From the NCBI GenBank assembly GCA_034620365.1, contig JAQGEQ010000131.1, positions 1 to 64,000 of the forward strand: 64,000 nt of DNA. Direction: 5' to 3'. A model generated the notes under the pieces. It made no database searches, was not told where the DNA came from, and worked only from the letters and a program-made list of their open reading frames with translations. The position numbers were made by a program, and so were the translations under genes. Positions 7,038 through 55,347 of the stretch are shown here, one piece after another. Within the stretch, counting starts at the first letter, position 1. Each line of letters begins with the position of its first letter. The DNA comes from Pegea sp. RAD2-039 (Eukaryota; Chordata; Thaliacea; Salpida; Salpidae).

Positions 7038-7151
7038 CATACAAACATTAGAGTAAATATTCATGATTAGTATGATGATTCTGTTCGACCTTCCACACCA
7101 GAAATACCGCCGAAAGGCATTTACAATTTGGAGTGTTGAACATTTTTCAAC
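7038..7151 (-). repeat. Hairpin-spacer-box module 1
   Basis: Minus orientation. The hairpin is GTTGAACATTTTTCAAC (7135-7151, 6 bp stem). The box at 7038-7046 is the diverged complement of GTTTGTATG, and the gap is 88 bp. Same class as the modules at 11005, 23791 and 44457. Confidence 0.6.
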
Positions 7152-7793
7152 ATGCTGTTTACATTAACAAAAAATTGTTATGAAAAGCAACTTGCTATCG
7201 TATAGCAGTTGAAATACTTTTCAGTTATTGTTTCAATTGCATTTCTTATTAGCACTAGATTTATTAATTTTATTTGCAGTAATACGTTTTTAAAATTTTA
7301 TATTTCTTTTTTAAAAACAAACAATTAATATAGATCAAAAACATTTTGTAAATTCAATCTAAGTCTATTAAAACTTTTAAGTAAACTAATTCTATTAAAA
7401 AAAGTAAGAGTCTCGAATGCATAAATGCTACATTATTTAAAATCTTAAATGTGACTAAAATATTTATGATTAAAATGTCGACATTCAAATAAAAACAATA
7501 AACTTTATTTTTAACAAGACTTTTGGAAAAAGCTTTGTATATCATAAAAGTTATTATGGTAGCGTTAAGTGAAAACACTTACTTCTTTATACTACTAGTA
7601 GCATGATGGCATCAATACAACGAAAAAAGAAACAATTTGTAAATATTTAAAATCTCAATCTACATATTTGCTTACTTACGACAGAATCATTCAGAGTTTA
7701 ACAAGCAAAAGAAAGACACAAAATATGAAAGAAATATACAAGTCCACAGCATTCTTCATATCGTTTTATGTCGGAGATCTTTTCGTTAAATGC

Positions 7794-7913
7794 AACTGAC
7801 AGTATCAGTTTTCAATTTTAAACAAATATTAAAAGCTATACAAGAAGCAGTTTGTTAATCTGGTATGATAGTGAATGCCTTATATGAAAACTTACTTTCT
7901 TTGTGTTTGTGAG
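7794..7913 (+). repeat. Hairpin-spacer-box module 2
   Basis: Plus orientation. The hairpin AACTGACAGTATCAGTT (7794-7810) has 6 bp arms and a 5-base loop, and GTTTGTGAG lies at 7905-7913 after a 94 bp gap. This is the commonest class; TATATGA lies about 25 bp before the box. Confidence 0.7.
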
Positions 7914-8908
7914 CTCATTTCAAACACGTTTTTAATGCTTTTCACACAAGTGTTAAGCTATAAACATTTGAAAGACATCTTAATAAAAGAATATTTCTTG
8001 TTTAAAATTAATTGTTTAGTTTATATGCTTAAATTAGAACTTTGAAAAGAGTAAAAACAAACTTCTTGAAACAATTTACTTTATTTAAACTACATTTAAT
8101 CTTGATCTTGCTTCAAAAAAAGATCTGCTATTGGCAGATTATCTATGGAGGCCAACTACAAATACGCAAATGAAATGATTTCAAATCTTCTGAATCTTAT
8201 GCTGAGCTAAATTTGTTAGTGATTACTATAAGTCTAATTCATAAATATGATGTCATCAGCCTCTCAAAGATTAACATGACTTTTTGATTTATACATGAAA
8301 TCGTTTACACCGTGTCAGCTTTACTGAGAACCAAATCAAGAATGTTGGATTAAATATTAAATCAAGAGAGTTTAATAATATCTTTACTAACATCTATAAG
8401 TGAAGAATAATTTATATCATTGATATATAATAGCATTAGCTTATTAGGACTAACTTCAGATATTTAACAAAAGTAAAATGACGACAATTACACAACAAAC
8501 CATTAGATTTATGAAAAAGAAGTATGTTAATTATGATTTATTTATACCAGCGTCGTGTAAAAGTGATAACCAACTTAATAATGAAGCCAATAATTTCGGA
8601 TAACATAAATTGTTGTTACTATAGATTGCAAACAGTTTGTAGTTTTTCAGTGTTAATACAATTATTCATAATATATTATGATATTATATAAATTAGTTGT
8701 TTCTCTAAATAAAGATAATGACATCAACATGACAAAAGCACAAAAATTTAGAATTTGCAAATGATTCAATGAAGATTAAGATTATAGATACTTGTTTACT
8801 TTTGATATTGTCTTTTAGAATTAAACAAATTTAAATGAAAAATTTTAGAAAAAGTTTTATGACATTGGTACGTTCTATTAAATAAAAGATAGTTTTAGGA
8901 TTAAACGC

Positions 8909-8925
8909 AACTGACAATATCAGTT
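8909..8925. repeat. Orphan module hairpin in block A
   Basis: AACTGACAATATCAGTT keeps both hairpin arms. No GTTTGTG box follows within 120 bp. The same site is found in block B (25666) and block C (54194), so the box was absent before the blocks duplicated. Confidence 0.55.
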
Positions 8926-9288
8926 TCCAAAGTTTCATGTTATCTTTTTTTTTTAATGATTCAATAAAATTTTAAAATCAGGATTTGATTTATATCATTA
9001 GTACTATATTAATCACTTGTCTAATTTGTACTAAAACAGTTGAACATTTCTTTGTTTTCTATAGACGAAAACAAATTAAGGTTAGTTTTTTTGATCTCAT
9101 AGAAATGATTTTTACAAGTGAATTCTTATCTTAGTTTATTGCTGTTTTTAAATTACTTATCAAATTGTTTGCTGCTGTAATTATTTTCTATATTTAAGAA
9201 CAGTAGTTTTGTTTTCTATTGAAAGTATTTAATTATACTTTAATGTCTATATTCAATGGTCTATTAGTTTTGCCAAGCAGCTATGATA

Positions 9289-9325
9289 CCTGCCTAGCAA
9301 GAAGGGGGCGTTGTTCCGGTTGCAA
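9289..9325 (+). repeat. G-rich segment shared by four repeat copies
   Basis: gggggcgttgttccggttgc followed by aaataaac is far richer in G than its surroundings. It is repeated near 26040, 54570 and 29755. It could be the remnant of a small retroposon head, but no complete tRNA-type A and B boxes are visible. Confidence 0.4.
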
Positions 9326-9400
9326 ATAAACACGTATTACTTACTAAGAAAACTCAAAATTTACAAACAGGCTATTGATTCCTGCAAAATGACAAAACTC

Positions 9401-9706
9401 CTACGTTATATGTTTGTAGAGAGATTTGGTGAAAGGGTCTACTTTAGTTTGTTTGTATAGGAGACTTTTTAATTGTCGTTTATTCTTCAAATATTTGGGC
9501 AAATGCAGTTTTTTGTTGACTTTATAAAAAAATATGAAATTTTTGATTAGCTCTGTAAATGATAATAAACCTTGACTAAATAGTATCGATGTCTTCGAAG
9601 AGTTGAAAACCGAAAACCAGTCAAGACCTGATAGAAACTTGTTTATACCATTATAATTTTCACAAAAGCAATTCCCTTTGCTTAAAGCTTTAAGACTTTT
9701 TTTCAT
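9401..9706 (-). mobile_element. LINE ORF2 fragment, old insertion
   Basis: An open frame of 101 codons includes NKFLSGLDWFSVFNS, FFYKVNKKLHLPKYLKN and LLYKQTKVDP. These align residue for residue with ORF2 of the LINE at 59.4-63.4 kb (LSGVDWISVFNS, LYRVNKKPHLPRYLRN, LLYKQTKADP), in the linker between endonuclease and reverse transcriptase. Orthologous but more damaged copies sit at 26130-26480 and 54660-55010, so this insertion predates the block duplications. Confidence 0.8.
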
Positions 9707-9947: not shown

Positions 9948-10066
9948 AACTGACAGTATCAGTTTTCAAAATTCTCTCTGACCATTATCTATTTTGTTGA
10001 TAGACTGATAGGATCGTAATAAATTAGATACTTTATATAACAACGTGTTTGCCTTGTGTTTGTGAG
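9948..10066 (+). repeat. Hairpin-spacer-box module 3
   Basis: Plus orientation, AACTGACAGTATCAGTT class. The hairpin is at 9948-9964, the box GTTTGTGAG at 10058-10066 and the gap 93 bp. Confidence 0.7.
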
Positions 10067-11004: not shown

Positions 11005-11118
11005 CCCACGAACATTAGAGTAAGAAGTCATGATTATAATACTTATTCTGTACGACCTTTTACACCAAAGATACCGCCGTAAGGCATTTACAATTTGGAG
11101 TGTTGAAAATTTTTCAAC
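11005..11118 (-). repeat. Hairpin-spacer-box module 4
   Basis: Minus orientation, same class as module 1. The hairpin GTTGAAAATTTTTCAAC lies at 11102-11118, the box complement cccacgaac at 11005-11013 and the gap is 88 bp. The interior is more diverged than in its sister copies. Confidence 0.65.
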
Positions 11119-11932
11119 ATGGTATTTTCTCTGGCAAAAATTTGTTTTCAAATTCAACTGTTACTTTCTAGCAGTGGGAATATTATTCAATTAATATTTG
11201 AATTGTATTTATTATTAACACTAGATTTATTTATTTTATTATTCTTATTTTAGTGATAAGTTTTTAAATTTTTACAAATCTATTGTAAACTCAAACTAAT
11301 TCTAATGAAAAATTAAAAGTTTCGAACGCAAGAATGATAAACTAAAAAAATTCTTTTATTAAATGATATTGCTTCCAAATAAGATCCGTTATTGGTAGGC
11401 TATGTATGAATGTCATTTACAAATTCTCTAAATTTTATTTAAAGGTAGATTTGTTATGATTTACTGTAAGTCTGACTGATAAATAAATAACTTCACATAG
11501 CTTTTTATAACTTAAGAAACTACTTTAATTAGCAAATTTAAAATCGTTAATATTAATCTTCTATCGTTTGCCAAGTAAATTCAAATCAATATTTTTGCTG
11601 CATTTTTTTTGAACAGTGTTTGAACATTACAAACACTAAATGTTTAAAACATTTTTAACTGCAACATCTATTCTATAACATTAGAACAAAACTTATTTTC
11701 CTAGAATAGAATTTAGAGAGAAATGAGATACCTAAATACTTAAATTTGAAATGAAATTTTAAGAAATTTTTATATAATGGTTCTCTTTCGTATCAATCAA
11801 AATAATCAGAAATTTTATTTTAATTATTAGAAGTACATTAAATCTTTTTGAAAATCTAGTAAAATTAATTAATTTTATGTGAATGACAGAAAACTCGACG
11901 TAATTGAAAATAAATGCTTAAAAATTGTTCAA
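11119..11932. other. Diverged repeat tail, no gene
   Basis: Fragments near 11390-11490 resemble the sub-repeat at 8120-8260 and 32080-32230, but they are badly diverged. No reading frame is supported. Confidence 0.4.
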
Positions 11933-12037
11933 CCCACAAGCACAAGATGAGTAGTTAGTTATATAAAGTAACATTGTTGATTTTAACTAGCGAGCTTGCT
12001 AGCGATCATTTTATTTTTGAAACTGACAGAATCAGTT
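11933..12037 (-). repeat. Hairpin-spacer-box module 5 (singleton)
   Basis: Minus orientation. The hairpin AACTGACAGAATCAGTT lies at 12021-12037, the box complement cccacaagc at 11933-11941 and the gap is only 79 bp. The interior contains a second hairpin, ctagcgagcttgctag (5 bp stem). The surrounding sequence is not part of blocks A-C. Confidence 0.6.
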
Positions 12038-13619: not shown

Positions 13620-14110
13620 ATGGATTTTTTATCATAAATTTCGTCATGTTAGCGTTAAGTGAAAAAAATAAGATTACGTGCTTCTTTAAAATATTATAAT
13701 GACATCAACACAACGAAAACTGAAAAAAAAATAATATGTAAATGAATCATTCTACATATTTTTTACTGTGAAGACAACAGTGTCACTTAGAGTTTAATAA
13801 ACAACCGAATGACACAACATATAGAAGAAAAGAACAAGTTTACCGCTTTCTTTTGTACTATTGAATAACGGAGATCTTTTTGTTAAATCCAACTGAAAGT
13901 ATCAGTTTTCAAATTTCCCAAGATAACCACTTCAAAACGAAGAGTTGATAAGATCGTAATAAAATAGATGCTTTATATAACAACATGTTTACCTTATGTT
14001 TGTGAGCCCACTTAAGACAATTTTATAATGCATTTAACGAAAATGTTAAACCATAAATATGTTTAAAACCATGTTCACTCCAACTTGATGCTTTGAAAGT
14101 AAATGTAATG
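13620..14110 (+). repeat. Partial copy of the block A module unit
   Basis: Segments such as cttctttaaa, gacatcaacacaacgaaaac and the module at 13891 follow the order seen at 9740-10130. The copy is clearly older than A, B and C. Confidence 0.65.
13891..14006 (+). repeat. Hairpin-spacer-box module 6
   Basis: Plus orientation. The hairpin AACTGAAAGTATCAGTT lies at 13891-13907, the box GTTTGTGAG at 13998-14006 and the gap is 90 bp. The one changed base falls in the loop, so the stem is intact. Confidence 0.7.
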
Positions 14111-23048: not shown

Positions 23049-23560
23049 CGAGAAAATAGACTTCGTAAGCAGGAACAGCAAGAAAGACTTCAACGAGAAA
23101 GAGAAGAACAGGAGAGAATAAAGCGTCTAGCTGAATATCAGCGAATGCAACAAGCGTCAGCAAATTACTACCAAAGAGATATGATGTTTCGTCAACAAGA
23201 ACAAGAAAATCGTCGAGTACAAGAAGAAAAACGCCTTCAACAAGAAGAAAACGCCATCAACAAGAAGAAAAACGTCAACAAGAAGAAAATAGACTTCTTA
23301 AGCAGGAACAGCAAGAAAGACTTCAACGAGAAAGAGAAGAACAGGAGAGAATAAAGCGTCTAGCTGAATATCATCGAATGCAACAAGCGTCAGCAAATTA
23401 CCACCAAAAAGAAATGATGCTTCGTCAACAAAAACAAGAAAATCGTCGATTACAAGAAGAAAAATGCCTTCAACAAGAAGAAAAACGTCGTCAACAAGAA
23501 GAAAAACATCGTCAACAAGAAGAAAAACGTCGTCAACAAGAAGAAAATAGACTTGATTAA
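23049..23560 (+). pseudogene. Broken copy of the coiled-coil repeat gene
   Basis: It begins inside the 58-residue unit (ENRLRKQEQQERLQ) with no upstream start, and holds two units. A one-base deletion in the poly-A part of gaagaaaacgcc near 23250 shifts the frame, which then stops at 23352-23354. The original frame resumes from about 23378 and ends with the same ENRLD stop as the copy at 6167. Truncation plus frameshift mark it as a pseudogene made when block A/B duplicated. Confidence 0.75.
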
Positions 23561-23790: not shown

Positions 23791-23904
23791 CCCACAAACA
23801 TTAGAGTAAATACTTAGGACTAGTATGATGATTCTGTTCGACCGTCCACACCAGAAATACCGCCGAAAGGCATTTACAATTTGGAGTGTTGAACATTTTT
23901 CAAC
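23791..23904 (-). repeat. Hairpin-spacer-box module 7
   Basis: Minus orientation, module 1 class. The hairpin GTTGAACATTTTTCAAC lies at 23888-23904, the perfect box complement cccacaaac at 23791-23799 and the gap is 88 bp. Confidence 0.7.
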
Positions 23905-24551
23905 ATGCAGTTTACATTAACAAAAAATTGTTATGAAAAGCAACTGCTACCGTATAGCAGTTGAAATACTATTCAGTTATTGTTTGAATTGCATTTATTA
24001 TTAGCACTAGGTTTATTAATTTTATTTGCAGTAATACCTTTTTAAAATTTTACATTTCTTTTTTAAAAACAAACAATTAATATAGATAAAAAACATTTTG
24101 TAAATTTAATCTAAATTTATTAAAACTTTTAAGTAAACTAATTCTATTAAAAAAAGTAAAAGTCTCGAGAGCTTGAATACTGCATTATTTAAAATCTTAA
24201 ATGAGACTAAAATATTTATGATTAAAATGTCGACGTTCAAATAAAAACAATTAACTTTATTTTTAACAAGACTTTTGGAAAAAGCTTTGTATATCATAAA
24301 AGTTATTATGGCATCGTTAAGTGAAAACAAAAAGGATTACTTCTTTATACTACTAGTAGCATGATGGCATCAATACAACGAAAAAAGTAACAATTTGTAA
24401 ATATTTAAAATCTCAGTCTACATATTTGCTTACTTACGACAGAATTATTCAGAGTTTAACAAGCAAAAGAAAGACACAAAATATGAAAGAAATATACAAG
24501 TCCACAGCAATCTTCATATCGTTATATATCGGAGATCTTTTCGTTAAATGC

Positions 24552-24671
24552 AACTGACAGTATCAGTTTTCAAATTTAAAGTAAAATTAAAAGCTATACA
24601 AGCAACAGTTTGTTAATCTGGTATAAAATTGAATGCCTTATATGACAACATACTTTCTTTTTGTTTGTGAG
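24552..24671 (+). repeat. Hairpin-spacer-box module 8
   Basis: Plus orientation, AACTGACAGTATCAGTT class. The hairpin is at 24552-24568, the box GTTTGTGAG at 24663-24671 and the gap 94 bp. Confidence 0.7.
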
Positions 24672-26700: not shown

Positions 26701-26820
26701 AACTGACAGTATCAGTTTTCAAAATTCTCAATATTATTTCTACTGTTAAAATCATAGACTGATAAGATTGTAATAAATTATATGCTTTATATAACAACGT
26801 GTTTGCCTTGTGTTTGTGAG
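26701..26820 (+). repeat. Hairpin-spacer-box module 9
   Basis: Plus orientation, AACTGACAGTATCAGTT class. The hairpin is at 26701-26717, the box at 26812-26820 and the gap 94 bp. Confidence 0.7.
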
Positions 26821-29010
26821 CTCATTTTATATAAATTTTTTCTAACTATGGTTCTAATGCAAATCTTAAATTATAAAAATGTTTAAGACCTTTTTCACTC
26901 AAACTTGATGCTTTGAAAGTAAATATAATTTTTCAGGGAATTATGTATTAGTGTTTTTTTGAGTTTATGTCAGATTTATTTTGTTTTTTGTTTTAAAAAT
27001 AGTTTTATTTTTCTGAATGTAAGTTTTTTTATCGTTTCAAAAGTTCAATAGTTTTGAATCAGTGATTTTTAACTGATTGATTTTCTCACATTTGTTAAAC
27101 GTTTTTAATATAACATCTTAACTTTATTTTTAAAACCATTTCAAAAATCATGGAACTAAACTAATTTTATTTCTTAATAAACTAATTATACTTAAATTGA
27201 TAAAATTAAAAACTATGAAATGCTTACAGATTTAAAAAAAATCTGCAACTAAATATCTAGATACCATAACAAATTGAATGTTTTTTCTCTGATTTTAATT
27301 TATTTTAATAATTTTTCTTTTTAACTTTATCATAAACAAGTTTATATCATTATTTTTGATTAAAAATATTTAAATTTAAATTTTTTAATTTAATTAAATT
27401 GTTTTATAGAATACAAAAACAAGATTTGAATATTTATAAATTATCTTTATAATTAGTTTTACTTTAAAATTAAACTTATTTATAAGCTGGATAACAATTT
27501 TATTAAAACATTTTTGTTAAGAAGTCTATTTTCTGCTGCATTTTATGTCGTTTATTAGTTCATAACTTATGTATGTTTAAATAAACAAAAATAAAATTGG
27601 TTAATCACAGAGATTAACTGTCGAAAAAATATGTTTCAACAAATTTATGTTTTAGTTAAAATTTTTCGTAAGATAACCCTTTTGATCAAATAAGAAAATA
27701 AAATTAGATTTTAATAAATTCAAAACAAGTGAATCAGTGACTTTTAACTGGTTGATATTTTCAGTTTTATTAAATATCCGTATTATAACATTTAACTTTA
27801 TATTTAAAAGCATTATTAAAATTTTGAAATTAAACTGATTTTGATTCTTAATAAAATTATAATATTTAAAGTTATAAAATTGAAAATTAATAAAATTATA
27901 AAATCATTTCTATAATAAATTTGAAAAAAAAGATTTTCTTTATTAATTTATAATTTTGTAAAATTATTATTGAAACAATACTACATTAATAAAGTTTAAA
28001 ATGAAATTGAAATGTTTATACTTGTAATGTCGACTTTTAAACAAATACAATTGAGCTACTAACAGGTTATCTATGGAAGCAAACTAAGAATACGCAGAAG
28101 AATTGATTTCAAATAAACTTCTATTATTTTTTTGTGGGTAAGTATGTAGGATATGTTAACGATGTATTAAAAAAAGTCGTAGAAAACAATAGTAAAATAT
28201 CAACTTATTTTAGCTTTTTATTTTCATAAGTATGTTATTACAGGCTTTGCATAGAAAAGTAGCAAAATAATACCCTATAAATTTTTCTAATATTATTGTG
28301 CTACTTATTTCCACAAACTAAACTTTAAAATAGAAGTAAAACAAAAGAAAATTACGATTTTATTGATCTTTGTTGCCCTACTGGTATCTAGCAATACGAT
28401 TTTTAATTAGTTAGTTACTATTAAATTACAAAACTTGTTTATATTATTCAACTGAACCATCTTTTCTAAACGACAGTAATAAACTCAAATTAATTTTGTT
28501 CAGTCGAAGTAATATCTATTATTAAATAACAGTTTTGTGTAAAATATTATATTCAATTAAAAAGAAAATAACAATTTAATTTTGAAATATAATTATAATT
28601 GAGATAATTTCAAATCATTAATAATTTAAAATTTTCATAATAATTGAAAAAAATGATTAATTTTAATATATACTAACCTAAATTCCTAATTGTAAAATTT
28701 GTTTTTAAGCTAATTCTTTAAAATTTTATAATAAATTTGACAAATATAATCAACTTTTTGATACTTCACTGCTGATAAACTTATTTTAAAACTTAGCATT
28801 GCTTAATACTATGATTTCTACCAACTGCTTAAAATCACTGATTTCTATAGAGAGTCTTAAGATCATATATGTATCTAAAATATTTACACAACTAAATTTT
28901 CTGTATCAACTTTAACCTTATCAATTTGTTTGATATTTTGTTTCGCTTTTATTTAAGTAAGGATAAAATAATTTAAACTAAAAAGGAAAAACTGTCACCT
29001 GAAGAAAAAT

Positions 29011-30075: not shown

Positions 30076-30195
30076 AACTGACAGTGTCAGTTTTCAAATT
30101 TGTCAATTAACAAGGCGATTACCAGAAAGGATAATTTTGATATCGTACAAAATTAAATCTTTTTTGTAACAATATTTTTGCCTTATGTTTGTGAG
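30076..30195 (+). repeat. Hairpin-spacer-box module 10
   Basis: Plus orientation. The hairpin AACTGACAGTGTCAGTT lies at 30076-30092; a loop change extends the palindrome to 8 bp arms. The box GTTTGTGAG is at 30187-30195 and the gap 94 bp. Confidence 0.7.
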
Positions 30196-31740
30196 TTTAA
30201 CTAAAGCACTTTTTTAATGCTTTTTACGCAAGTGTTCAACTGTAAATAAGTTTAAAACATCTTAGTAGAAGAAAGTTTTTTCTTTGAAATTAAATAATAA
30301 ATAATAATGACACGGATAATGATTAGTAATTACTTTTCTCATTAGTTAATATAAAACCAGAATTCTAATTTGTTTAGATAATATAGGCAATATGTAGAAA
30401 TTTAAATTCATTTCTATGCGATTACTTCCGACCACAAACATTAAACTGAATACAATGCATATGGCATAATTTGTCCCGATGTAATCTGTACTATATTGCG
30501 TTTCTTGCTATAAAGTGCAGATTTTAGCAGGCAAAATATTCAATTTCAAGCGTTATGTATGCTGTCGGTTAGATTCTCTTACAGTCAGATGACGAGCAAT
30601 TTGTAAGAACATTTGTAAGAGGAACTTTTAAATAAATAGAATCCTACTTTTTTAAACAAAAAGTTCTTTAGTCCTATAAAATAGTACGTAATATTTCAGG
30701 ATTGAAATAATAATTTATTTTAACTTTTTTGTATTTCCTTAATTTTCTAATTTATCGTCTACAAAAAGTTTAAAAATTGCATGGGGAAACTTGTTATAGA
30801 CATCTAACACTTACTTGTCTACATTCAGTTTACTAAATAAAATATACTGTTTGGGAATAAGTTACTCTACTGTAGATAGCTAGCTTATACTTTTAAATCA
30901 TCAGTTAAAACATAAAAAGAAATTATTTTATTGGAGCTAAAAGCATTTAAAAGAATAAAATTTATAGATAACTTATCAAAACTGCAGTTGGAATTATTCT
31001 ATTGTTACAAACAAAAGCTGATCATGTTCTCATCTAACTGAAACTAATGGTTTTTATATTTCAAAAACTGTATAAGCTGTTGAAACAGATTCATTTAATT
31101 TATTTAAAAAGACAAATTCTATATAAACTGATATCATATTATGGTTTTATAAATGAATAAAGATGCTTTTAAAATAAATTGTACAACCTTTTAGGATGAA
31201 CAAAAAAAACTTCTATTTCTACATGAATACACGCTCTTCTTCTTATAATTTAAAAAATCAAATAATTTACTTTAGTAGCATTAAGATTAAGAACCTGCAG
31301 TTTTATAAACTTGGTTAGTTCGAACTGTAAATTATATTTAAAATAGAATTAAATTTGTTACAGAAACAATACTGCATTAAAAAAGTTCAAAATACAAGAA
31401 AATGTTATTATTTGATACGTCGTCTTTTAAACAAAAACAAATGAATTTAATTTCAAAAATACTGTTATAAACAGATTGTTTATCATAACTGTTATCTTGG
31501 TAGGGTTAATTAAAAACAAATAAGAATACGTACTTCTTTAAAGTAAAATGATGACATCAACAAAACTAAAACAAAAAAAATTTGGAAATTTTTAAATGAA
31601 ACATTCTACATATTTTTTTAAATACGAAAACGTCATTTAAAAGTTTAATAAACAAAAAAATGACACAAAATATGAAAAAATTAAACAAGTCCACAGCGTT
31701 CTTTATATCGTTAAACAACGTAGATCTTTTTGTTAAATGC

Positions 31741-31861
31741 AACTGACAGTATCAGTTTTCAAAATTAGTAAAATTGAAGGAATTTTACAATAAAATTAAA
31801 TGATAATTAGATGATAAACTAAAGGCCTTAAATGACAACATACTTTCTTTGTGTTTGTGAG
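31741..31861 (+). repeat. Hairpin-spacer-box module 11
   Basis: Plus orientation, AACTGACAGTATCAGTT class. The hairpin is at 31741-31757, the box at 31853-31861 and the gap 95 bp. Confidence 0.7.
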
Positions 31862-32745: not shown

Positions 32746-33126
32746 TTTTATATTCAATCTTAGCAAAGTAATTTTGATAAATTTGAAAATTAAACTTCTA
32801 AATTCACTTTGCCCATATTCTTATTCTAGTTTGTTTTATAAAATTTGATTTGATTTAGAATTGATTTTATTCTACTATTAGAGTAGTTCTGTTCTTTCTA
32901 AAACAATTCTGAATTTTGATTTTTTTCTGTCATTCACAGATACAATTAATTAATGAAATCAAAGACTGTTGTTGTGAATAATAATGAAGTTTTGGCTTGA
33001 TAAGATTATACTTTCAAATAACTAAAGTAAAAGATTATTAATAAATGAAACATAATCTAGCAAAAGTTAATTTACGATTTACAGACTACCATAATTTTAA
33101 ATACTTCAATATTTGTAAAGGTTTTA

Positions 33127-33242
33127 TCGACACGTAGTCGACTTCAAATTAAGTTATATAGAATTTTATATTTACACGCAATGTTGCTAGAATAAAATTA
33201 GAATTGCTTATTAAAAAGGATTTTTATTCTAGTGTTTGTGGG
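33127..33242 (+). repeat. Hairpin-spacer-box module 12 (singleton)
   Basis: Plus orientation. The hairpin TCGACACGTAGTCGA lies at 33127-33141 with a stem unrelated to the other classes, followed by CTTCAAATT. The box GTTTGTGGG is at 33234-33242 and the gap 92 bp. A second 11 bp stem (CTAGAATAAAA with TTTTATTCTAG) closes just before the box. Confidence 0.65.
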
Positions 33243-33603: not shown

Positions 33604-33706
33604 ACCACAAACATCAGATTTTATCCCGATATTATATAAGTGTATAAATGAAGAGTGAAATAACCAGCAAATAATTTTTCCTATTTAATAAAATGCATAT
33701 TTGCAT
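33604..33706 (-). repeat. Hairpin-spacer-box module 13
   Basis: Minus orientation. The hairpin ATGCATATTTGCAT lies at 33693-33706, the box complement accacaaac at 33604-33612 and the gap is 80 bp. Its flank resembles those at 38.6, 39.8 and 50.5 kb. Confidence 0.6.
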
Positions 33707-35424: not shown

Positions 35425-35544
35425 CCCACAAACTCTAGGTTGTAATAAAGTTATATGAAATGAAAATTACATTTACATGACCAGACCTTAAATAATTACT
35501 ATATTAGATATTTGATACAATTTTGGATTTGAAATACTTTTCAA
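35425..35544 (-). repeat. Hairpin-spacer-box module 14
   Basis: Minus orientation. The hairpin TTGAAATACTTTTCAA lies at 35529-35544, the perfect box complement cccacaaac at 35425-35433 and the gap is 95 bp. The class shares gatcccacaaactctag with 40.9, 41.7 and 50.2 kb. Confidence 0.7.
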
Positions 35545-37320: not shown

Positions 37321-38349
37321 ACATTTAAAAAAAATTTTTGTAAATATTTTGTTGAATTTCATTTTAAAAGAATAAATTATACTTAATTTTCGCTGAAGCC
37401 ACAAACATAAGGTTATGCAGCTTATATTTAATATTTAGAAAAATCCCTTTTCACTGAAATACCAAACTCATTTATAAGTGCAAAATATGGAAGGTTCACT
37501 TTTGCCTCTGTTTATCAACTAAATATTTTTCATAAGTAAGAATTACAGATATTGTATTTTCTTTAAAATAAAGTTTACTTAAATCTCATCATCAAATAAT
37601 CTACATTTAATTTCACCATTAAATATCATGAAGTTGGTTAAAGTTGTAAATTAATTCTGAGGAATACAAAAGTTCCTAGTTCATTGTAAACGATTTAATC
37701 GTAAATAAATAAATCGTAATACAGCAACTATAAACACAAATTTAACAAATATATATATAAAATTCGAGCTAATAATTACTAAGATCAATTTTAACAGTTA
37801 AAGAATATATTTTCCTATAGTTAAAACCAAATGTAGTTTTGATAAAATCACTAGTGTACGCAGGTTAAATTAATTCTTTCAAAATAGTTAAAAACCCATT
37901 AATTTTAACTTTTTGCTTCTATTGTTTGCGTTCTCTAGAAAATATAATATTTTGGCTATTAATAAATATCTAATAATTTGATATTCTCTGGATGATTTAC
38001 TTTAATGAATTGTATGATTTCTAAATTTGTAATTCATTTTGAAGATCAAACGAATATAATCTCTGAGTCTTATAGTACTTTCAATTAAAAAAAAGTCACA
38101 TGACTTTTGATTTTAGTTTTCATCATCGTTTTTTAACGACTGATGGTTTTTAATTTTAATCATCATAGGAATGACTTTAAATCTTAATTTAATACAACTA
38201 GATAAGAAAAATGAACTAATTTGGTTTTTATAATAGTAAACTTATAATAAATTTTCTTATCAACTTTAAATCAAATTTTCTAATATAACAATTTTTGTCA
38301 ACAAAATGCTTATCAATAAAATTATAAAATTAATTTCATTTGAACTTGA

Positions 38350-38606: not shown

Positions 38607-38722
38607 ACCACAAACCTAAGATTGAATGAAAATAATATATAACCGTAAAGCTTACGAAGAAGTTATATCATTTTATTACTTGTCTGGATAACAATACTAA
38701 TTTGGAAGATGCAGTTTTGCAT
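38607..38722 (-). repeat. Hairpin-spacer-box module 17
   Basis: Minus orientation. The hairpin ATGCAGTTTTGCAT lies at 38709-38722, the box complement accacaaac at 38607-38615 and the gap is 93 bp. Confidence 0.65.
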
Positions 38723-38900
38723 TTGATTATCTTAATGAAATACAATTGGATAAGAAAAATTCACTTAATTTGGTTTGTATAATAGTAAACTTAAAATAAA
38801 TTAAAAGTTATCAACTTTAAATCAAATTTTTTATTATAACAATTTTGTCAACAAAATGCTTATCAATAAAATTATAAAATTAATTTCATTTGAACCTTAT

Positions 38901-39793: not shown

Positions 39794-39913
39794 ACCACAA
39801 ACATAAGATTAAATGAAGATAATATATAACCGTAAAGCTTACGTAGAAATGAAATCGTTTTATCTCGTAATTTGACTTTAAGACATCAATTTGGAAGATG
39901 CACTTTTGCATCT
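39794..39913 (-). repeat. Hairpin-spacer-box module 19
   Basis: Minus orientation. The perfect 7 bp hairpin AGATGCACTTTTGCATCT lies at 39896-39913, the box complement accacaaac at 39794-39802 and the gap is 93 bp. It shares long flanks with module 17 (taaccgtaaagcttacg). Confidence 0.7.
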
Positions 39914-40825: not shown

Positions 40826-40937
40826 TTGAAAAGTATTTCAACACAAAATTATGTATACGATTTGTTGTCATGAAGAAATGATTGAAAGATATACTTTTCA
40901 TTATTTATAAACGTTGTTGCCATCTAGAGTTTGTGGG
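40826..40937 (+). repeat. Hairpin-spacer-box module 20
   Basis: Plus orientation. The hairpin TTGAAAAGTATTTCAA lies at 40826-40841, the perfect box GTTTGTGGG at 40929-40937 and the gap is 87 bp. Confidence 0.7.
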
Positions 40938-41542: not shown

Positions 41543-41673
41543 GTTGAAAAATTATTTCAACTCCAAAATTCCAAACTAGGTTTGCTGTTTGACTAGTCTA
41601 CTAGAAGTAGTAGTCGAAATTATTTATTTACTTTTGACTATTTATAACTTTGTAGTAATCTAGAATTTGTGGG
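41543..41673 (+). repeat. Hairpin-spacer-box module 21
   Basis: Plus orientation. The 7 bp hairpin GTTGAAAAATTATTTCAAC lies at 41543-41561, the box ATTTGTGGG at 41665-41673 and the gap is 103 bp. An internal stem (gactagtc, tagtagtc) accounts for the longer gap. Confidence 0.65.
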
Positions 41674-41914
41674 ATCAAATTCAAATTTCAATGGTAATTT
41701 TTGTTTATAAATAATGCTCTCTTTGTCAAGGTTAAAATAAAACTATGTATATCAATTATTTGTTTATTTATTAAAAATTTATAAGTTGAAACTGTTAAAA
41801 AATTCTTTAATAGTTACTTTTAATTGAATTTTATTTTTTAATTTTTTAATTAGTTTAAAAACCTTTAACTAGTTAGATTTGTAGCACCACAAACAACAGA
41901 CTTTAAGCATTTTT

Positions 41915-42395
41915 ACAAATTTATTTTATAAATAATAACCTTAAAATTTCCTTATTAGTTTTTAACAAATAAGAAGTTTTAAAAATGTCATTATAAATTA
42001 AAAATAATTTTAACGCAAACGAATAAAGTTTTTTTTCATTTTTACTCCGTTTTTTAATCTGCATTAGAAAAACATATTTAATTAGGTTATTTTAGGTTAA
42101 AATGATTATTTTTATGGGTTTGATAAAAACTTTTTCCAAAATTTATTATTTTGCAGAAAATATATAAAACTATTTAAAATAATGAAAAATATCACCCAAA
42201 TTATATTTAATAGTGCTTTTCTTAAAAAATAGTATTTAATGCTTTTTTTTGCTATAAAAAAGCTCATTTTAAATTGTAAATTATAAACTATTAGTATTAC
42301 GATTGTAGATGAGGATTTATTAAGCTAAAAGATAAGCATCTGAACTTTTAAAAAATATTACTAATAGAACAATAAAAATGAAAAATGAATATTAA
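41915..42395 (-). repeat. Inverted-repeat arm (partner 32270-32745)
   Basis: See the partner entry. The arm runs into a decayed box (accacaaac at about 41886) for which no clear hairpin can be found. Confidence 0.7.
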
Positions 42396-43402: not shown

Positions 43403-43518
43403 AACTGACAGTATCAATTTTTAAAATTCTCAACAGTTAAAACTTTTCAAACAAAAAAAGACTGATCGTAATAAATTCGATGCTTTTTAAAACAAAGTTT
43501 TCGCCTCATGTTTGTGAG
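43403..43518 (+). repeat. Hairpin-spacer-box module 22
   Basis: Plus orientation. AACTGACAGTATCAATT (43403-43419) has one mismatched pair, the box GTTTGTGAG is at 43510-43518 and the gap 90 bp. Confidence 0.6.
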
Positions 43519-44456: not shown

Positions 44457-44570
44457 CCCACAAACATTAGAGTAAATATTCATGATTAGTATGATGATTC
44501 TGTTCGACCCTCCACACCAGAAATACCTCCGAAAGGCATTTACAATTTGGAGTGTTGAAAATTTCCCAAC
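44457..44570 (-). repeat. Hairpin-spacer-box module 23
   Basis: Minus orientation, module 1 class. The box complement cccacaaac is at 44457-44465 and the gap 88 bp. The hairpin at 44554-44570 is reduced to a 4 bp stem by two changes. Confidence 0.55.
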
Positions 44571-45719
44571 ATGCTGCGTGCATTAGCAAATTTTTTTTTT
44601 TAAATCCACTGCTACTTTAGAGCAGTTGGTATACTTTTCACTTTTTTTTAATTGCATTTATTAGTAGCACTAGATTAAATAATTTTATTTGCAAAAAAAT
44701 GTTTTAAAAATTTTACAAATCTTTTGGAAACAAAAACATTAATATAAATAAAAAAATTTAAGTAAACTCAAATTAAATTCTAATAAAGATTAGCATTTTC
44801 AGATGCTCGAATGAAGAACTAAAAATAACTGAGCTATAATTTTAATTGAAATTATTACAGAAAAAATACTACATTATTTAAAATTTTAGATATGACTAAA
44901 TTATTTACGATTGAAATATTGACGTTCAAACAAAAACAACTTATTTTATTTTTAATAACACTTTTATAAAAAGCTATTTATATTATAAAAGTTATTATGG
45001 CATCGTTAAGTGAAAACAAATAATATTACTTACTACTTTAAAGTAGCATGATGACATAAACACAAAGAAAATAGAAAAAATGTAAAAATATGTAAATGAA
45101 TCATTCTACATATTTGTTTACTTAATACATTAGCACTTTTTAAATATTATTTCACACAAAATATATAATTTTCTGTGTATACAATCACTTTAAACAAATA
45201 ATTTTGATTAAAGTCCTTCGAATTTGAAGTAAAATAAAAATTATATCTAATAAGCAAAATGAAAAACATTAAAGAAAATTAAATTTAAACCTGAGGTTAG
45301 TTTCAAATGTAAATGCTTAATAGAATGAATGACATTTTAACAGAAGAAATGCTAGAAATTTTACAATTCTGAATGTGACTAAATTGATTATGATTAAAAT
45401 GTTCAAAGAAAAATAATTTAGTTTATTTTTAACAAAACTTTTATAAAAAGCTTTTTATATCATAAATGTTGTCATAGTAGCATTAAGTGAAAACAAATAA
45501 GATATAAACTCGACGGCGTTATTTAGAATTTAAAAAGCAAAAGAATGACACAGTAGTTTCTTAAATAATTAAATAATTTAATAGTTTCAACACTAAACTA
45601 AAACCAAATTATAAAATAATTGTTTGAAAAAGATTGTTAAAATGCAACTGCAAGTTTCTTAAAACATTGTGAAGAGTTCTACCGGAAATAAAATTAAAAA
45701 AAAAATTTTTCTTAAATAA

Positions 45720-46095: not shown

Positions 46096-46211
46096 GTTGA
46101 AATTTATTCAACTCCAAAATGTATTCTACAAAGATATATCACTTATTGGACCACGAAATGCTAATGGTTTCATCAGTATTTATAAAGTTGTTTCAATCTT
46201 AAGTTTGTGGC
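46096..46211 (+). repeat. Hairpin-spacer-box module 24
   Basis: Plus orientation. The hairpin GTTGAAATTTATTCAAC lies at 46096-46112 and is followed by TCCAAAATG. The box GTTTGTGGC is at 46203-46211 and the gap 90 bp. A decayed version is at 14385-14503. Confidence 0.6.
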
Positions 46212-46639: not shown

Positions 46640-49600
46640 ATCATTTCAAACTCATGAAATTTTGTTAAATTTTATACAAACGAATATTGAATTTTAAACG
46701 AAAGATTTAATATTACTGAAGTTGTTATTTATTTAAAGGATTACTTCCTGAAATATTTAAAAAGTTGTTTATAAATTCCTTTTTAATCTCTCTTATAAAT
46801 AATTCGTAGAATAAGTATCCCTTCCATTTTTCAATATTTGTTTTTTAATTTAGAACAAAGAAACAAAATTATACTTTTAAAGTACAAAAGAAAAATGTTC
46901 AAAATACTTAAGCTTCAAGAGATCAAAAAAAATTATAATTTTTTTATAGATAAATTTGCAAAAGTATAAATGTAATAATTAGTATTTGATTTTTGTTTAT
47001 TAACATTTATTCAAATGGTTATAAAATCAAATTTGAAACTGAACTTTTTGTTGCTTAAAATATCAGTTTAAACAACTTTCCACAGATTACTAATCTTAGT
47101 TGACAACAAAATGTCTTTATTACTGTCATAACTTTTATGAATAGAAATTCGTCATTTCGACAACATTTATTGTTTTTTTTAGGTTAAGTTGTTTTGAGAA
47201 AATATTAAATTTTATCTAAAATAAAATAAACTTTACTATAAAATAAAATTAATTTATTGTGTAACTAAAAACGTTTTTATATAAAATTAGGAAAATGTAT
47301 TTATAAATTTTTGATTTCTTGCTTTTTTAGTCGAAAAAGTTGACGTTAGATGTCGCTGATGATAAATGATTTTTAAAACCTTACATTGCTTCAGGCTATG
47401 TCTTTGTAAACTTTTCCAACTCAGTAAATTTACTAAACTCAAAAAGAAAGTATTAAGATGAGATCTGTATCTAAGATGTTTGCAGAAGTAAAAGTTCTAT
47501 ACTAGATATTACATCATCAGTATCTTTGATATTCAAATACTTTTTTATTTTAGTTCTGATAAACAATTTAAACTGATCAAAATTAGCGGATAATGTTTTC
47601 CACTGAATTAAAAAACCTTATAAAATGAATAATTTGTTTTCAGATTAGTTTCTTAACTATGTGAATAGTGGGGAAAAAAATTATAAAACCTTCTAATCAA
47701 GTCTATAAGATCAAATGAGTCCTTATCTAAACATAAACAAAATTTGTTGTTAAAAAATAATAAAACAACTTTTCAAGTCATTGAACAGAAAAACATTTTT
47801 TTTAATTATTTGATTATTGCATGTTCTCATAATGAATACATTTAAGTGATTTTAAACTGAATTTTTTTGTTTCAACTTATAGCTTCTAAGATAGAAATAT
47901 TGTGGTTTCTTTTTTTATACTTAAAGACAATTCTCCATTACTAAAATTTAAAGCTTGATCAAGTTTCATAAAACGATTACTAAAAAATCTGTATTTGAAA
48001 CGTTATGTGTGAAGTAATGAAACAAACATTATATTCCGAATTAACCAAATAATGCGAAGTATAATTCACTAATAGTATATAATTATGCAAATATTATTTA
48101 ATATATAGATATATAATAATATGTAATAACTATAAAACTAATTTTAACCAATTGTTTTCTTTCAATACCTAAATAAGGTTAGAATAACATTAGTCAGAAT
48201 AAAAAGACAAATGTTTCAACAATTTCTACCATGTCAATTCATTAAGAGTCACAACAAAACTTTCATTGGAATTTATTTTAATAGACTCTAAATTATGAAT
48301 CTTTTTTAGAATATTATTGCATTTTGATATTTATTTTCCAGCCACAAGATATAACTAATAATAACTAACCATAATAGTTTTATTTTCATATTTTGCAAAA
48401 TTGTAAAAGTTGTATCCTTATATCTGTTAAATAAATAGTCTAGATCAGAGTCTAGTTTTCAAACTCATACAACTAGCTTCATATAAAAAGTATTCTTATT
48501 ATGTTTAGTTTTAAAGAATTACTTGAAAAATTTAAACTAAAACGTATTTTGCACCTAGAAGTAAGATATGATCTTCTTTAAGACTGATGTAAAAGAAATA
48601 AAAAATGTCTCACAGTTTTCGATAAATGAAACTAACAGAGAAAATAAAATTTAAAAAATACTTTCCTCCGGACAAACACTAGATCGAAAGAAATTGATAA
48701 AACAAAGAAATAATTATTGAATCACCAGATCCTTAAACAACTACTTTAATAATATTTATTAATTTTGAAATCGACAATCTGTCGATTAATTTTATCAAAA
48801 AATTGACGTACTGCAAATATCTTATTTTCAACTCTTGTTATTAATATTAACATTTGAAAATATATTCAATAACACAACATATTTAATAAATAAAATGTAT
48901 CATATTTTCTTATTTTAAACGGTGGTTTCTTTTCCGAATAAACTGAAGAGGAGAGAAACTAGCTTCAAAAAAAAAGAGAAACTGCATCAGCTTTTTATTT
49001 TGCATTTCACTGTGTATTGCTCGATTAGTTTCTTTACGTCTCACTTTCTCTTACTTTATCTTTAATATCATTACTCATAGCAAATCCTATATGACAGTTT
49101 TCGGCCGAGCTTTTACAATGAAAATTTACCATTCGTAATCTTGTAATAAATTTATTATTTCAATTAGTTGTTTTATAAAATTTTTCATTTCTATTCTTCT
49201 ATAAACTTTTTGTAAAAAATAAATTAATGTTTATTTTGCATTAAATTAAAAGCTATTTTTAAAAACGAATAGAAACTAAATTTAATGATTTGTTTTTACA
49301 ATACTTCACTACGTTTCGATTAAAATTATTCAGAATTCAAAAATATATTCAAAGCATCTCTCGACCTTGTCTTTTGAAAATTTTTTGAAAATTTTAATTA
49401 AAAAAGAAACAAGTAATAAAAGGAAAAAAATAATTTCAAATTGTTTTCAAAGGAAAACATTTTATGACAGTTCTTACCAAACCTTATAAAGGAGAATGTA
49501 ATTATTAAAGTTGACTTTTGTTTTGACAATTATTAGATCAAAAGAGATGATAGTCAAAGAATTATCATGGAACATTTGACATATTAGTTCTTGAAAACGC

Positions 49601-50046: not shown

Positions 50047-50159
50047 GTTGAAAGTATTTCAACTTCAAATTGGGCTTCTAATGTATTGTTTACAATCATC
50101 TGAGAACTTCTCAGAATTTTTTGGTCATAACAACTTTGTTACAATCTACAGTTTGTGGG
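50047..50159 (+). repeat. Hairpin-spacer-box module 25
   Basis: Plus orientation. The 7 bp hairpin GTTGAAAGTATTTCAAC lies at 50047-50063, the perfect box GTTTGTGGG at 50151-50159 and the gap is 87 bp. Inside, TCTGAGAACTTCTCAGA forms a second 7 bp hairpin. Confidence 0.75.
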
Positions 50160-51290: not shown

Positions 51291-51299
51291 ATATTATAG

Positions 51300-52077: not shown

Positions 52078-52082
52078 CATGC

Positions 52083-52154: not shown

Positions 52155-52156
52155 GA

Positions 52157-52162
52157 TTTTTT
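52157..52162 (+). terminator. RNA polymerase III T-run terminator
   Basis: Six T residues begin two bases after the discriminator base of tRNA-His. No comparable run follows tRNA-Met. Confidence 0.75.
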
Positions 52163-52944
52163 AATTTCAGTTTATCTTTTCTCCTTACTTTTAATTCGTA
52201 TCTTCTACTACAGGCTGTTTCTATCCATCAAAACTTATATCTAACAAACTATCTTTCATTAAAACTAAAACGATTTATGCTGTAGCCAGAATTCAAACTC
52301 TTAGTTTATTTAAAAACGTTTTTACTCCCTTCAAATATAATTAATTTAAATTAAAATTATTAGTTGATTTTAACAGAATAAACACCAACGAAATTACCTT
52401 AAAAAGTACCTCGCGCTACGAGAAGTTCGTTTGTATTTTGTAAAATTTTGTAAGAAATCACTTTCACTATAAATTTCAAACATTTTTCAATTACAAAACG
52501 CTTATGGTAAGTTATAAAAAATGTACTAGAAGTGAAAACATGTTTCTAATTTATTCAAAAAAAACTTTATCAGGAAAACCAAAACAATAAACTTTGGTAA
52601 AGTGTTGGAAGCAAAAAAACATACTTTATCATTTGGTTGATAAAATCTAATTTTGTTAATATATTTCTTACTAAATAAAGTTACAAAAACTGAAATTTAA
52701 ATAAACGATTATTGATATAAAGTGACACTTTTCAGAATAATTTTTTTATTTGTTTATTTCTTTTATTTTTGTTTTTAGTTTATTGTATTTAACGCATGTC
52801 TGCAAATAGAAAACTATTCATCTCTTATCACGAGAAAGAAGCAACATGACTGCAGAAATATAATATAAAGATACAAAGTATCCTATTTTACGAAACTTAA
52901 CACAGACAAATAAGTACACTGCAGAAGCATAAGTAAATATAACT
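52163..52944. other. AT-rich spacer
   Basis: The frame running from 52079 to 52285 is a shadow of the tRNA-His gene. No other feature is seen before block C. Confidence 0.35.
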
Positions 52945-53089
52945 TATACATATTTGCTCACTTACGACAGAATCATTCAGAGTTTAACAAGCAAAAGAAA
53001 GACACAAAATATGAAAGAAGTATACAAGTCCACAGCATTCTTCATATTGTTATATATCGGCGATCTTTTCGTTAAATGCAACTGACAGT

Positions 53090-53198
53090 ATCAGTTTTCA
53101 AATTTAATCTATTACAAAAGCTATTCAAGGAGCAATTGGTTAAACTGGTATAAAATTGAATGCCTTATATGACAACTTACTTTCCTTGTATTTGTGAG
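53090..53198 (+). repeat. Hairpin-spacer-box module 27
   Basis: Plus orientation, AACTGACAGTATCAGTT class. The hairpin is at 53090-53106, the box variant ATTTGTGAG at 53190-53198 and the gap 83 bp. Confidence 0.65.
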
Positions 53199-54659
53199 CT
53201 CATTTCAAACACTTTTTTAATGCTTTTCACACAAGTGATAAACTATAAACATGTGTAAGACATCTTAATAAAAGATTGTTTCTTGTTTGAAATAAATTGT
53301 TTACTTTATATGTTTAAATTAGAACTTTGAAAAGAGTAAAAACAAACTTCTTGAAACTATTTACTTTATTTAAACTACATTTGACTAATGATCTTGCTTC
53401 AAAAACAGATCTGCTGCTGGCAGATTATCTATGGAGGCCAAATACAAATACGCAAAGGAAATGACTTCATATCTTCTGAATCTTATGCTGAGCTAAATTT
53501 GTTATTGATTACTATAAGTCTAATTCATAAAGATGATGTCATCAGCCTCTCAAAGATTAACATGTCTTTTTGATTTATACATGAAATTGTTTATACCGTG
53601 TCAGCTTTACTGAGAACCAAATCAAGAATGTTGGATTAAATATTAAATCAAGAGAGTTTAATAATATCTCTACTAACATCTATAAGTGAAGAATAATTTA
53701 TAACATTGATATATAGTAGCATTAGCTTATAAATACTAACTTCAGATATTTAACAAAAGTAAAATGACGACAATTACACAACAAACCATTAGATTTATGA
53801 AAAAGAAGTATGTTAGTTATGATTTATTTATACCAGCGTCGTTTAAAAGTGATAACCAACTGAATAATGAAGCCAATAAATTCGGATAACATAAATTGTT
53901 GTTACTAAAGATTGCAAACAGTTTGTAGATTATCAGTGTTAATACAATTATTCATAATACATTATGATATTATATAAATTAGTTGTTTCTCTAAATAAAG
54001 ATAATGACATCAACATAACAAAAGCACAAAAATTTAGAATTTGCAAATGATTCAATGAAGATTAAGATTATAGATGCTTGTTTACTTTCTATATTGTCTT
54101 TTAGAATTAAACAAATTAAATGAAAAATTTTAGAAAAAGTTTTATGACATTGGTACGTTCTATTAAATAAAAGATAGTTTTAGGATTAAACGCAACTGAC
54201 AATATCAGTTTCCAAATTTTCATGTTATCTTTTTTTTTTAATGATTCAATAAAATTTTAAAATCAGGATTTGAATTATATCATTAGTACTATATTAATCA
54301 CTTGTCTAATTTGTACTAAAACAGTTGAAAATTTCTTAGTTTTCTATAGACCCAAACAAATTAAGGTTAGTTTTTCTGATCTCATAGAAATGATTTTTAC
54401 AAGTGAATTTTTATCTTAGTTTATTGCTGTTTTTAAATTACTTATCAAATTTTATGCTGCATTAATTATTTTCTATATTTAAGAACAGTAGTTTTGTTTT
54501 CTATTGAAAGTATTTAGTTATACTTCAATGGTCTATTAGTTTTGCCAAGCAGTGATGATACCTACCTAGCAAGCAGGAGGCCAAGTTGCAGTTGCAAATA
54601 AACAAATATTACTTACTAAGAAAACTCAAAATATACAAACAGGTAAAGGGCTATTGATT

Positions 54660-55010
54660 CCTGCAAAATGACAAAATTCCTACGTTATATGTTTGTAGAG
54701 AGATTTGGTGGAAGGGTCTACTTTAGTTTGTTTGTATAGGAGACTTTTTAAATGTCGTTAATTCTTCAAATATTTGGGCAAATGCAGTTTTTTGTTGACT
54801 TTATAAAAAATATGAAATTTTTGATTAGCTCTGTAAATGATTATAAACGGTTGACTAAATAGTATCGATATCTTCGAAGAGTTGAAAACAGAAAACCAGT
54901 CAAAACCTGATAGAAACTTATTTATACCATTATAATTTTCACAGTAACAATTCCCTTTGCTTAAAGCTTTAAAACTTTTTTTCGTAAAAATCTTTGCTAA
55001 GTCAAATAAG
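54660..55010 (-). mobile_element. LINE ORF2 fragment in block C
   Basis: Third copy of the fragment at 9401-9706, with the same end points relative to block landmarks, and therefore inherited with the block rather than inserted independently. Confidence 0.7.
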
Positions 55011-55227
55011 ATTAAGTACTTCTTTAAAGTAGTATGATGGCATCAACACAACAAAAACAGAAAAAATTATGGAAATTTTTAAATGAATCATTCTGCATAT
55101 TTGTTTACTGAAGACAGTGTCGTTTAGAATTTACGTAACAAAAGAATGACACAAAATATGAAAGAAAAGATCAAGCTCACTGCATTCTTTTATATCATTG
55201 AATACAATAAATCTTGTTGTTAAGTGC

Positions 55228-55347
55228 AACTGACAGTATCAGTTTTAAAAATTCTCAATATTATTTCTACTGTTGAAATCATAGACAGATAAGATTGTAA
55301 TAAATTATATGCTTTATATAACAACGTGCTTGCCTCGTGTTTGTGAG
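55228..55347 (+). repeat. Hairpin-spacer-box module 28
   Basis: Plus orientation, AACTGACAGTATCAGTT class. The hairpin is at 55228-55244, the box GTTTGTGAG at 55339-55347 and the gap 94 bp. Confidence 0.7.

Follow-up and report, generated by a model that had tools for sequence, protein, structure and literature searches.

What is the short module of hairpin, gap and box that recurs in both orientations in this DNA, and what keeps its geometry constant? The window is the whole 64,000-nucleotide stretch analysed, bases 1–64000 of contig 275 (JAQGEQ010000131.1) of the Pegea sp. RAD2-039 assembly, with a G + C content of 24%. The assembly searched comprises 105.7 Mb in 387 contigs. Units are named after the position of their box in the window. 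They are probably members of a large, clustered and diversifying family of small nuclear RNA (snRNA)-type, Sm-class RNA genes, a designation of the type of gene and not of a guide role.

Recurrence of the module

The first-pass annotation had counted 26 units, 15 plus and 11 minus in its own reading direction; the re-count gives the same number and the same split. The 26 were selected by eye on geometry out of 46 near-boxes. The box GTTTGTG[AG][GT] occurs 22 times in the window versus 1.85 times per dinucleotide shuffle (maximum 6; 100 shuffles). Complete hairpin-gap-box arrangements with a gap of 75–105 bp and a stem of at least 6 bp number 14 (shuffles 0.18, maximum 3; 100 shuffles), and those with a stem of at least 5 bp number 18 (shuffles 0.51, maximum 3; 100 shuffles). 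Shuffles of the same composition, the control set in advance, thus fall far below the window. Sorted by gap, hairpins with a 6-bp stem number 14 at 75–105, one at 45–75 and four at 15–45 bp. Self-alignment of the window yields three blocks, 6.3–11.0, 23.1–28.2 and 52.9–56.8 kb, that are mutually 90–94% alike, and the copy number is therefore partly due to duplication. The range of 7.0–55.4 kb formerly assigned to the module holds for good window copies (7.9–55.3 kb) but not for the family, which extends along the contig and to others.

Putative promoter

On the strand opposite to that of the first reading the order is CYCACAAAC box, TATA-like block, class-variable stretch, AATTT(T)GR, hairpin. 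Judged from sequence, this is the correct direction, and the box is a putative promoter element of the proximal sequence element (PSE) type. The snRNA genes of the assembly, fetched with Rfam models (U1, 19 matches; U5, 15; U2, 19; U6, 15; 41–65 candidates scored per model), served for comparison. Of 33 distinct anchor matches 30 were used as promoters; left out were the second U5-anchor match in L017, which is without PSE, and two rows for U1 in L011, where the PSE is misplaced. In the 30 promoters a PSE of the type YCCACAAAYNNNAAACTT lies 57–58 bases upstream of the start in U1, U2 and U5 and 60–61 bases upstream in U6. On the other strand YCCACAAAYNNNAAACTT is the box of the first-pass annotation. 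A matrix made from U1, U2, U5 and U6 promoters only gives 17 window sites of at least 7 bits, 13 of these among the 26 boxes, versus a mean of 4.4 and a maximum of 9 in 60 shuffles.

The TATA box stands at offset 26–29 in 22/22 U1, U2 and U5 promoters and at 32–34 in 7/8 U6 promoters; in one U6 promoter no TATA was found. U1/U2/U5 and U6 promoters are all of the TATA-bearing kind, and the PSE–TATA distance differs between them by about 5 bases. The genome thereby separates U6 from U1, U2 and U5 by a plant-like rule, a PSE–TATA distance rule of this kind being stated for plants in the section cited (PMC9652321). In the window a TATA-like word is present at offset 25–31 in 18/26 units. A strict finder, which demands PSE, TATA-like word at 23–38, Sm-like site and hairpin, accepts 15 window units versus 0.15 per shuffle (maximum 1; 60 shuffles), and 65 distinct units across the window and the genome loci analysed with it. 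Its TATA range includes the U6 offset; the 65 units have TATA at 26–29 (51/65) or none (14/65), and never at 32–34. In the class 1 set, which was not selected by TATA, the offset is 26–28 in 44/56 members and no TATA was found in 12/56. Since this offset matches U1, U2 and U5 and not U6, the units have the layout of genes of RNA polymerase II (pol II). Pol II also fits better than pol III because 18/40 body clusters (a set in which one class 4 body is represented by 18 nt only, as cut by the finder) hold TTTT, which is expected to stop pol III. In a local control of spacing the normal gap gave 5 matches in the window, 2 in L041–L043 and 0 in snRNA loci; shifted gaps gave 0.

A protein-gene promoter on the strand first read, with the GTTTGTG box as start site, was considered and rejected: the reading frames that follow are all short, and in antisense the box resembles a PSE.

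Predicted RNA

The predicted RNA starts 57 bases past the first base of the PSE and ends at the end of the hairpin. For 22 window units its length would be 48–74 nt, 55–64 nt in 20 of them. A 5′ body of 20–49 nt is followed by the Sm-like site, AAUUU(U)GR, and this by a 3′ stem-loop. In U-snRNAs the Sm site, of consensus RAU3-6GR, is followed by a 3′ stem-loop, and AATTT(T)GR fits this consensus in sequence. Beside the hairpin RAU3-6GR is present in 16/26 units and one base off in 6/26, namely in units 7905 (AAAATTGA), 11941 (TATTTTTGA), 40929 (AATTTTGT), 43510 (AATTTTAA), 46203 (CATTTTGG) and 55339 (AATTTTTAA). The earlier suggestion of a small structured RNA of about 115 nt was the best of the three offered; strand and length have to be changed. 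The hairpin is retained as the predicted 3′ end, and the box is promoter and not RNA. About half of the former "gap" is promoter up to the predicted start, the remainder being the variable 5′ body. The constant geometry is that of a fixed spacing from PSE to TATA to predicted start together with a body of similar length.

Stem sequences differ and nevertheless pair: AACTGA/TCAGTT, GTTGAA/TTCAAC, ACTTGC/GCAAGT, GATGCA/TGCATC, GTCGAC/GTCGAT. In a gapless alignment of 11 natural modules, chosen as hairpin-bearing, a choice that in part presets the proportion of paired cells, covariation is 0.912, versus 0.338 when shuffled (0/500 reach the observed value) and at most 0.149 when slid. All six stem pairs show two-sided changes in these modules. 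Folding of 45 class 1 bodies does not exceed that of shuffles (mean z −0.26), and a structured 5′ body is unsupported on average; single bodies can fold (unit 31853, z −3.3). The tetranucleotide TTGA is present in 19/40 body clusters versus 7.3 expected.

Distribution in the genome

The pattern TTCAA-gap-GTTTGTGRG has 659 matches in the genome versus 134 for its reversed control, and the PSE-TATA-Sm pattern CACAAAC-gap-TATAWA-gap-AATTTKRA has 200 versus 14, counts that are neither complete nor all true. The latter pattern matches only 5 sites in the window and therefore misses most units. Among the matches listed, unit-pattern sites lie on 20 contigs and form local families, e.g. on contigs 92/134, 107/211 and 64/104/136/261. 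Contig 22, found through a body sequence, carries an array of at least 26 units in a single orientation over 113 kb, 14 of which were checked. From the matches listed for the hairpin-free pattern, 31 loci (L082–L112) were picked: the strict finder accepts 16/31, in 7 more a stem is seen by eye past the Sm-like site, 4 are judged weak by eye (L096, L097, L101, L107) and 4 are without stem (L089, L105, L111, L112). The genome carries hundreds of such putative units, many of them clustered.

Divergence

The body diverges faster than its surroundings and the Sm-like site and stem mostly more slowly. The class 1 set had 57 matches, of which one false match (L073:102) was dropped and 56 were used. 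At flank divergences of 3.2% (61 pairs), 7.0% (111 pairs), 12.6% (46 pairs) and 20.4% (256 pairs), the body differs by 9.7, 24.8, 22.4 and 34.0% and the Sm-like site with stem by 0.7, 1.1, 2.4 and 5.5%, respectively; the loci were fetched by an exact hairpin pattern, by which low stem divergence is built in, and the pairs are not independent. The excess of body over flanks shrinks at larger flank divergence. In 21 disjoint pairs divergence is 9.1% in the body (70/772 sites), 3.3% in the flanks (415/12556) and 0.7% in the Sm-like site with stem. The body rate is 2.7 times the flank rate (odds ratio 2.9, Fisher p 1e-12) and is the higher of the two in 13/21 pairs.

Body divergence lies above both flanks in 7/7 other families, and divergence of the module below both flanks in 5/7. 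Values for body, flanks and module are 47, 25–26 and 0% in contigs 92/134 type b; 34, 17–19 and 10% in contigs 92/134 type a; 25, 1–12 and 0% in contigs 107/211; 37, 5–13 and 8% in L100/L102; 26, 15–20 and 1% in contig 22; 10 (2/21 sites), 1–2 and 0% in contigs 102/247 (C102); and 5 (about 4/81 sites), 1–2 and 3% in contigs 91/254 (C91). In C91 and C102 the number of body differences is small.

The divergence profile of 145 pairs is 7% at TATA, 12% at the start, 24% in mid body and 2% at the Sm site. Such a profile, with its climb from TATA up to mid body and its fall at the Sm site, is compatible with diversifying selection, or else with a mutation hot spot that is linked to transcription, the carrier being under selection. 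The Sm site and the stem pairing recur across families and contigs, and for this reason the RNAs seem to be selected.

Interpretation and rival explanations

By established snRNA biology, each unit would be transcribed from its PSE–TATA promoter by SNAPc and pol II, with the start about 57 nt past the first base of the PSE. Sm proteins would then bind AAUUU(U)GR and form a stable nuclear ribonucleoprotein (snRNP). Sm site and stem pairing would be kept as the carrier, with the 5′ body outpacing the flanks in divergence. By analogy with U7 and the antisense RNAs engineered as U7 SmOPT, the body, predicted to be single-stranded, may, tentatively, be a recognition tail on an Sm-core carrier and bind partners, RNA or protein, that are short and change fast. 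The narrower proposal of a diversifying repertoire like U7 SmOPT, in which short guides would act against changing partners (transposon or viral transcripts, competing RNAs) as a nuclear counterpart of piRNA (PIWI-interacting RNA) loci, is improbable as it stands.

Several observations weigh against the assignment to snRNA-type genes and against a guide role. The scores of the unit PSEs, −3.4 to 18.5 bits, all fall short of those of the snRNA promoters from which the matrix was made (20.9–32.8); these PSEs are therefore weaker or of a variant type. No TATA-like word was found in 8/26 units, no Sm-like site in 4/26 (30439, 33612, 37406, 41894), and no 3′ box was identified by eye. No second hairpin was recognised in the units and no long shared body motif over the 40 body clusters. 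Between closely related class 1 units the flanks diverge by 4.5–9.4%; TATA, at 7.1%, is kept no better, and the PSE, at 3.7%, only slightly better. The module of C91 (2.8%) exceeds its flanks (0.9 and 1.7%), and that of L100/L102 lies between its flanks. To these are added the effects of selection given above for the class 1 stems and the covariation modules. Two bodies were searched for antisense targets with 2 and 3 mismatches, and no site outside units was found in the assembly. Of the 12 matches of the first, 8 lie in known unit loci and the other 4 have the PSE; the 26 matches of the second are all on contig 22, where 14 were inspected and the remaining 12 coincide with TTCAA-gap-GTTTGTGRG unit-pattern sites. 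Near-perfect targets of 22–25 nt in the assembly are thus excluded for the two bodies tested; shorter contacts may exist. Duplex energy of bodies with U1, U5 and U6 is not stronger than that of shuffles; with U2 it is 2.5 standard deviations stronger, in one of four tests.

The faster change of the body could also come from local hypermutation or unequal exchange, the body being a mutation hot spot in snRNA-like gene clusters with many decaying members and the Sm core their only function. The gradual rise of divergence (TATA 7%, start 12%, mid body 24%) before the fall to 2% at the Sm site, the transition share of 0.36 in bodies versus 0.47 in flanks, and the decay of several units agree with this explanation, which is nevertheless somewhat unlikely, as families on many contigs have the Sm site and the stem pairing in common. 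An accessory snRNP like SmY, with interchangeable members, no guide role and a freely drifting body, would likewise consist of Sm-class RNAs that are multi-copy and carry a stem 3′ of the Sm site. In the passages cited, SmY RNA has two stem-loops around the Sm site, the first of them conserved in sequence, and a single SmY gene of C. elegans can substitute for others (PMC11229312). The units have no consistent first stem and no long conserved 5′ motif, and pure drift would not push the body rate above that of the flanks; the SmY-like reading is unlikely.

Polymorphic families of spliced-leader (SL) RNA exist. In SL RNAs with many leaders the body would be an exon donated to mRNAs, followed by Sm site and hairpin; short SL RNAs agree with the units in size, Sm-like site and 3′ stem, and a few bodies hold GGTAAGC, GTAAGG or GGTACAA. 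However, GT[AG]AG is present in 2/40 body clusters versus 1.4 in shuffles and GTATG in 0/40 versus 1.1, and some bodies, e.g. those of units 23799 and 44465, are without any GT. With the donor splice site near chance level (2/40 body clusters), identity with SL RNA was rejected as very improbable. In the rotifer Brachionus plicatilis an EST study detected no trans-spliced leader (PMC1925144), which would bear on the units only if their genome were that of a Brachionus. The end of a mobile element or a cruciform DNA unit, both raised by the first-pass annotation, would account for dispersal in both orientations within long repeats; the block, however, matches the layout of an snRNA promoter and pol II spacing, and either identity is barely credible. 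Nothing observed, the self-alignment of the window included, pointed to an element end, though no systematic search for ends was made.

Known families were likewise searched for. In the window Rfam gives only two tRNAs at gathering score, and up to E 5 no match listed falls in a unit. The U7 model (RF00066) matches the genome weakly at three places (best E 0.40; 65 candidates scored), none over the cut-off. U7 and other Rfam families were rejected as identity for want of a match. By the tests run, the snRNA-type family proposed here is not SL RNA, SmY or U7. Among the open-licence papers listed on SmY and on spliced-leader, Sm-class and small nuclear RNA of rotifers, Brachionus included, none describes such a family in the parts consulted.

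Description of the window units

Coordinates are given with the strand of the predicted RNA. Class 1 is represented by ten units, all minus, all with PSE. Unit 7905 (7794..7913) has the PSE 5′ end at 7913, a predicted start at ~7856 and an RNA to ~7794 of 63 nt. TATA is present in units 10058 (9948..10066; RNA ~10009–9948, 62 nt), 13998 (13891..14006; RNA ~13949–13891, 59 nt), 24663 (24552..24671; RNA ~24614–24552, 63 nt), 26812 (26701..26820; RNA ~26763–26701, 63 nt), 53190 (53080..53198; RNA ~53141–53080, 62 nt) and 55339 (55228..55347; RNA ~55290–55228, 63 nt). No TATA was found in units 30187 (30076..30195; RNA ~30138–30076, 63 nt), 31853 (31741..31861; TTTAA instead; RNA ~31804–31741, 64 nt) and 43510 (43403..43518; RNA ~43461–43403, 59 nt), the last decayed.

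Class 2 units are plus: 11013 (11005..11119; PSE with one change, TATA; RNA ~11062–11119, 58 nt), 23799 (23791..23905; PSE, no TATA found; RNA ~23848–23905, 58 nt) and 44465 (44457..44571; PSE, no TATA found; RNA ~44514–44571, 58 nt). A degenerate further copy of this class, at 7038..7152 (plus), has a decayed PSE (CATACAAAC). Class 3 comprises unit 35433 on the plus strand (35425..35544; PSE, TATA; RNA ~35482–35544, 63 nt) and, on the minus strand, units 40929 (40826..40937; PSE, TATA; RNA ~40880–40826, 55 nt), 41665 (41543..41673; PSE, TATA; RNA ~41616–41543, 74 nt) and 50151 (50047..50159; PSE, no TATA found; RNA ~50102–50047, 56 nt); unit 46203 (46096..46211, minus; RNA ~46154–46096, 59 nt) is class 3-like, with TATA and a PSE-like element of low matrix score. 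Class 4 units 38615 (38607..38724; RNA ~38664–38724, 61 nt) and 39802 (39794..39913; RNA ~39851–39913, 63 nt) are plus, with PSE and TATA. Unit 11941 (11933..12037, plus; PSE with one change, TATA; RNA ~11990–12037, 48 nt) forms a class of its own, and unit 33234 (33126..33242, minus; PSE, TATA-like word; RNA ~33185–33126, 60 nt) is characterized by the stem GTCGAC/GTCGAT.

The four units without Sm-like site are plus. Unit 33612 (33604..33661) has PSE and TATA and no Sm-like site beside the hairpin, and unit 37406 (37398..37455) a weak PSE; both are by eye decayed class 4. Unit 41894 (41886..41943) has a PSE of 17.6 bits that resembles the PSE of L101, which has an Sm-like site. Unit 30439 (30431..30487; PSE 18.5 bits, no RAU3-6GR by the stem) is a different snRNA-type gene by its features, with like sequences in L041–L043.

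The last unit lies in a stretch (30431–30690, plus) that represents a second conserved type of gene with snRNA promoter and no evident Sm site beside the stem (PSE ACCACAAACATTAAACTG, RNA ..CTATACTATATTGTTTTTCTTGCTATAAAGTACAG..). The type recurs on contigs 273, 286 and 287 (L041:5108, L042:4023 and L043:2323), where class 1 units are its neighbours; L041 has no Rfam match. At 48669 (plus) a possible extra degenerate unit is seen, with CGGACAAACACTAGA, the Sm-like AATTTTGA and an 8-bp stem AATCGACA/TGTCGATT. At 54317 (minus), and in related copies near 8.9 and 25.6 kb, an Sm-like site and a class 1-like stem-loop are preceded by no recognisable promoter, and these copies are therefore promoterless or decayed.

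Other features of the window

Remains of a non-LTR retrotransposon lie in several frames at 59546–63356 (minus), with an RVT_1 match and endonuclease matches just under the Pfam cut-off. At 58976–59338 (plus) an 84-bp tandem repeat has by eye C2H2 zinc-finger-like units and 6 stops in the translated range. The retrotransposon remains and these zinc-finger-like units suggest an animal genome. A repeat frame rich in glutamine, glutamate and arginine is present in two copies, at 6131–6808 and 23051–23560 (plus), beside duplicated unit blocks. The stretch 28244–28319 (minus) weakly resembles precursors of the mir-15 family (E 0.004, under the gathering score) and is duplicated at about 57.3 kb.

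Comparison with known systems

The units are like U1, U2 and U5 genes in having a PSE, TATA at the same offset, the same start distance and an Sm-like site followed by a 3′ stem-loop. They differ in being at most about half the size, in the absence of a conserved 5′ part, in weaker PSE scores, in the lack of an Rfam match and in comprising hundreds of diverging members.

U7 has a size of about 60 nt, and the Sm site of the units presumably resembles SmOPT. Likeness to U7 and engineered U7 SmOPT extends to an exposed 5′ end, an Sm site and a 3′ hairpin; natural U7 is described in the passages cited as bound to Lsm10/11, its single tail being directed at histone pre-mRNA (PMC5333040). The units, in contrast, have very many tails and no RF00066 match over the cut-off. 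With nematode SmY they share the state of multi-copy Sm-class RNAs, whereas the conserved first stem-loop that the cited part of PMC11229312 gives for SmY was not seen in them.

We know of no Sm site and no 3′ stem in nematode 21U-RNA (piRNA) loci, where very many short pol II transcripts likewise come from an snRNA-derived promoter and, in C. elegans, from clusters (PMC6436959, in the part cited). The precursors made there, of ~28 nt, are unlike the predicted RNAs. If the present reading is true, snRNA machinery would be used for a diversifying RNA repertoire, as it is in nematodes for piRNAs. If expressed, the family would be among the largest of Sm-class RNAs known to the authors, one in which a conserved carrier bears a 5′ end that changes fast.

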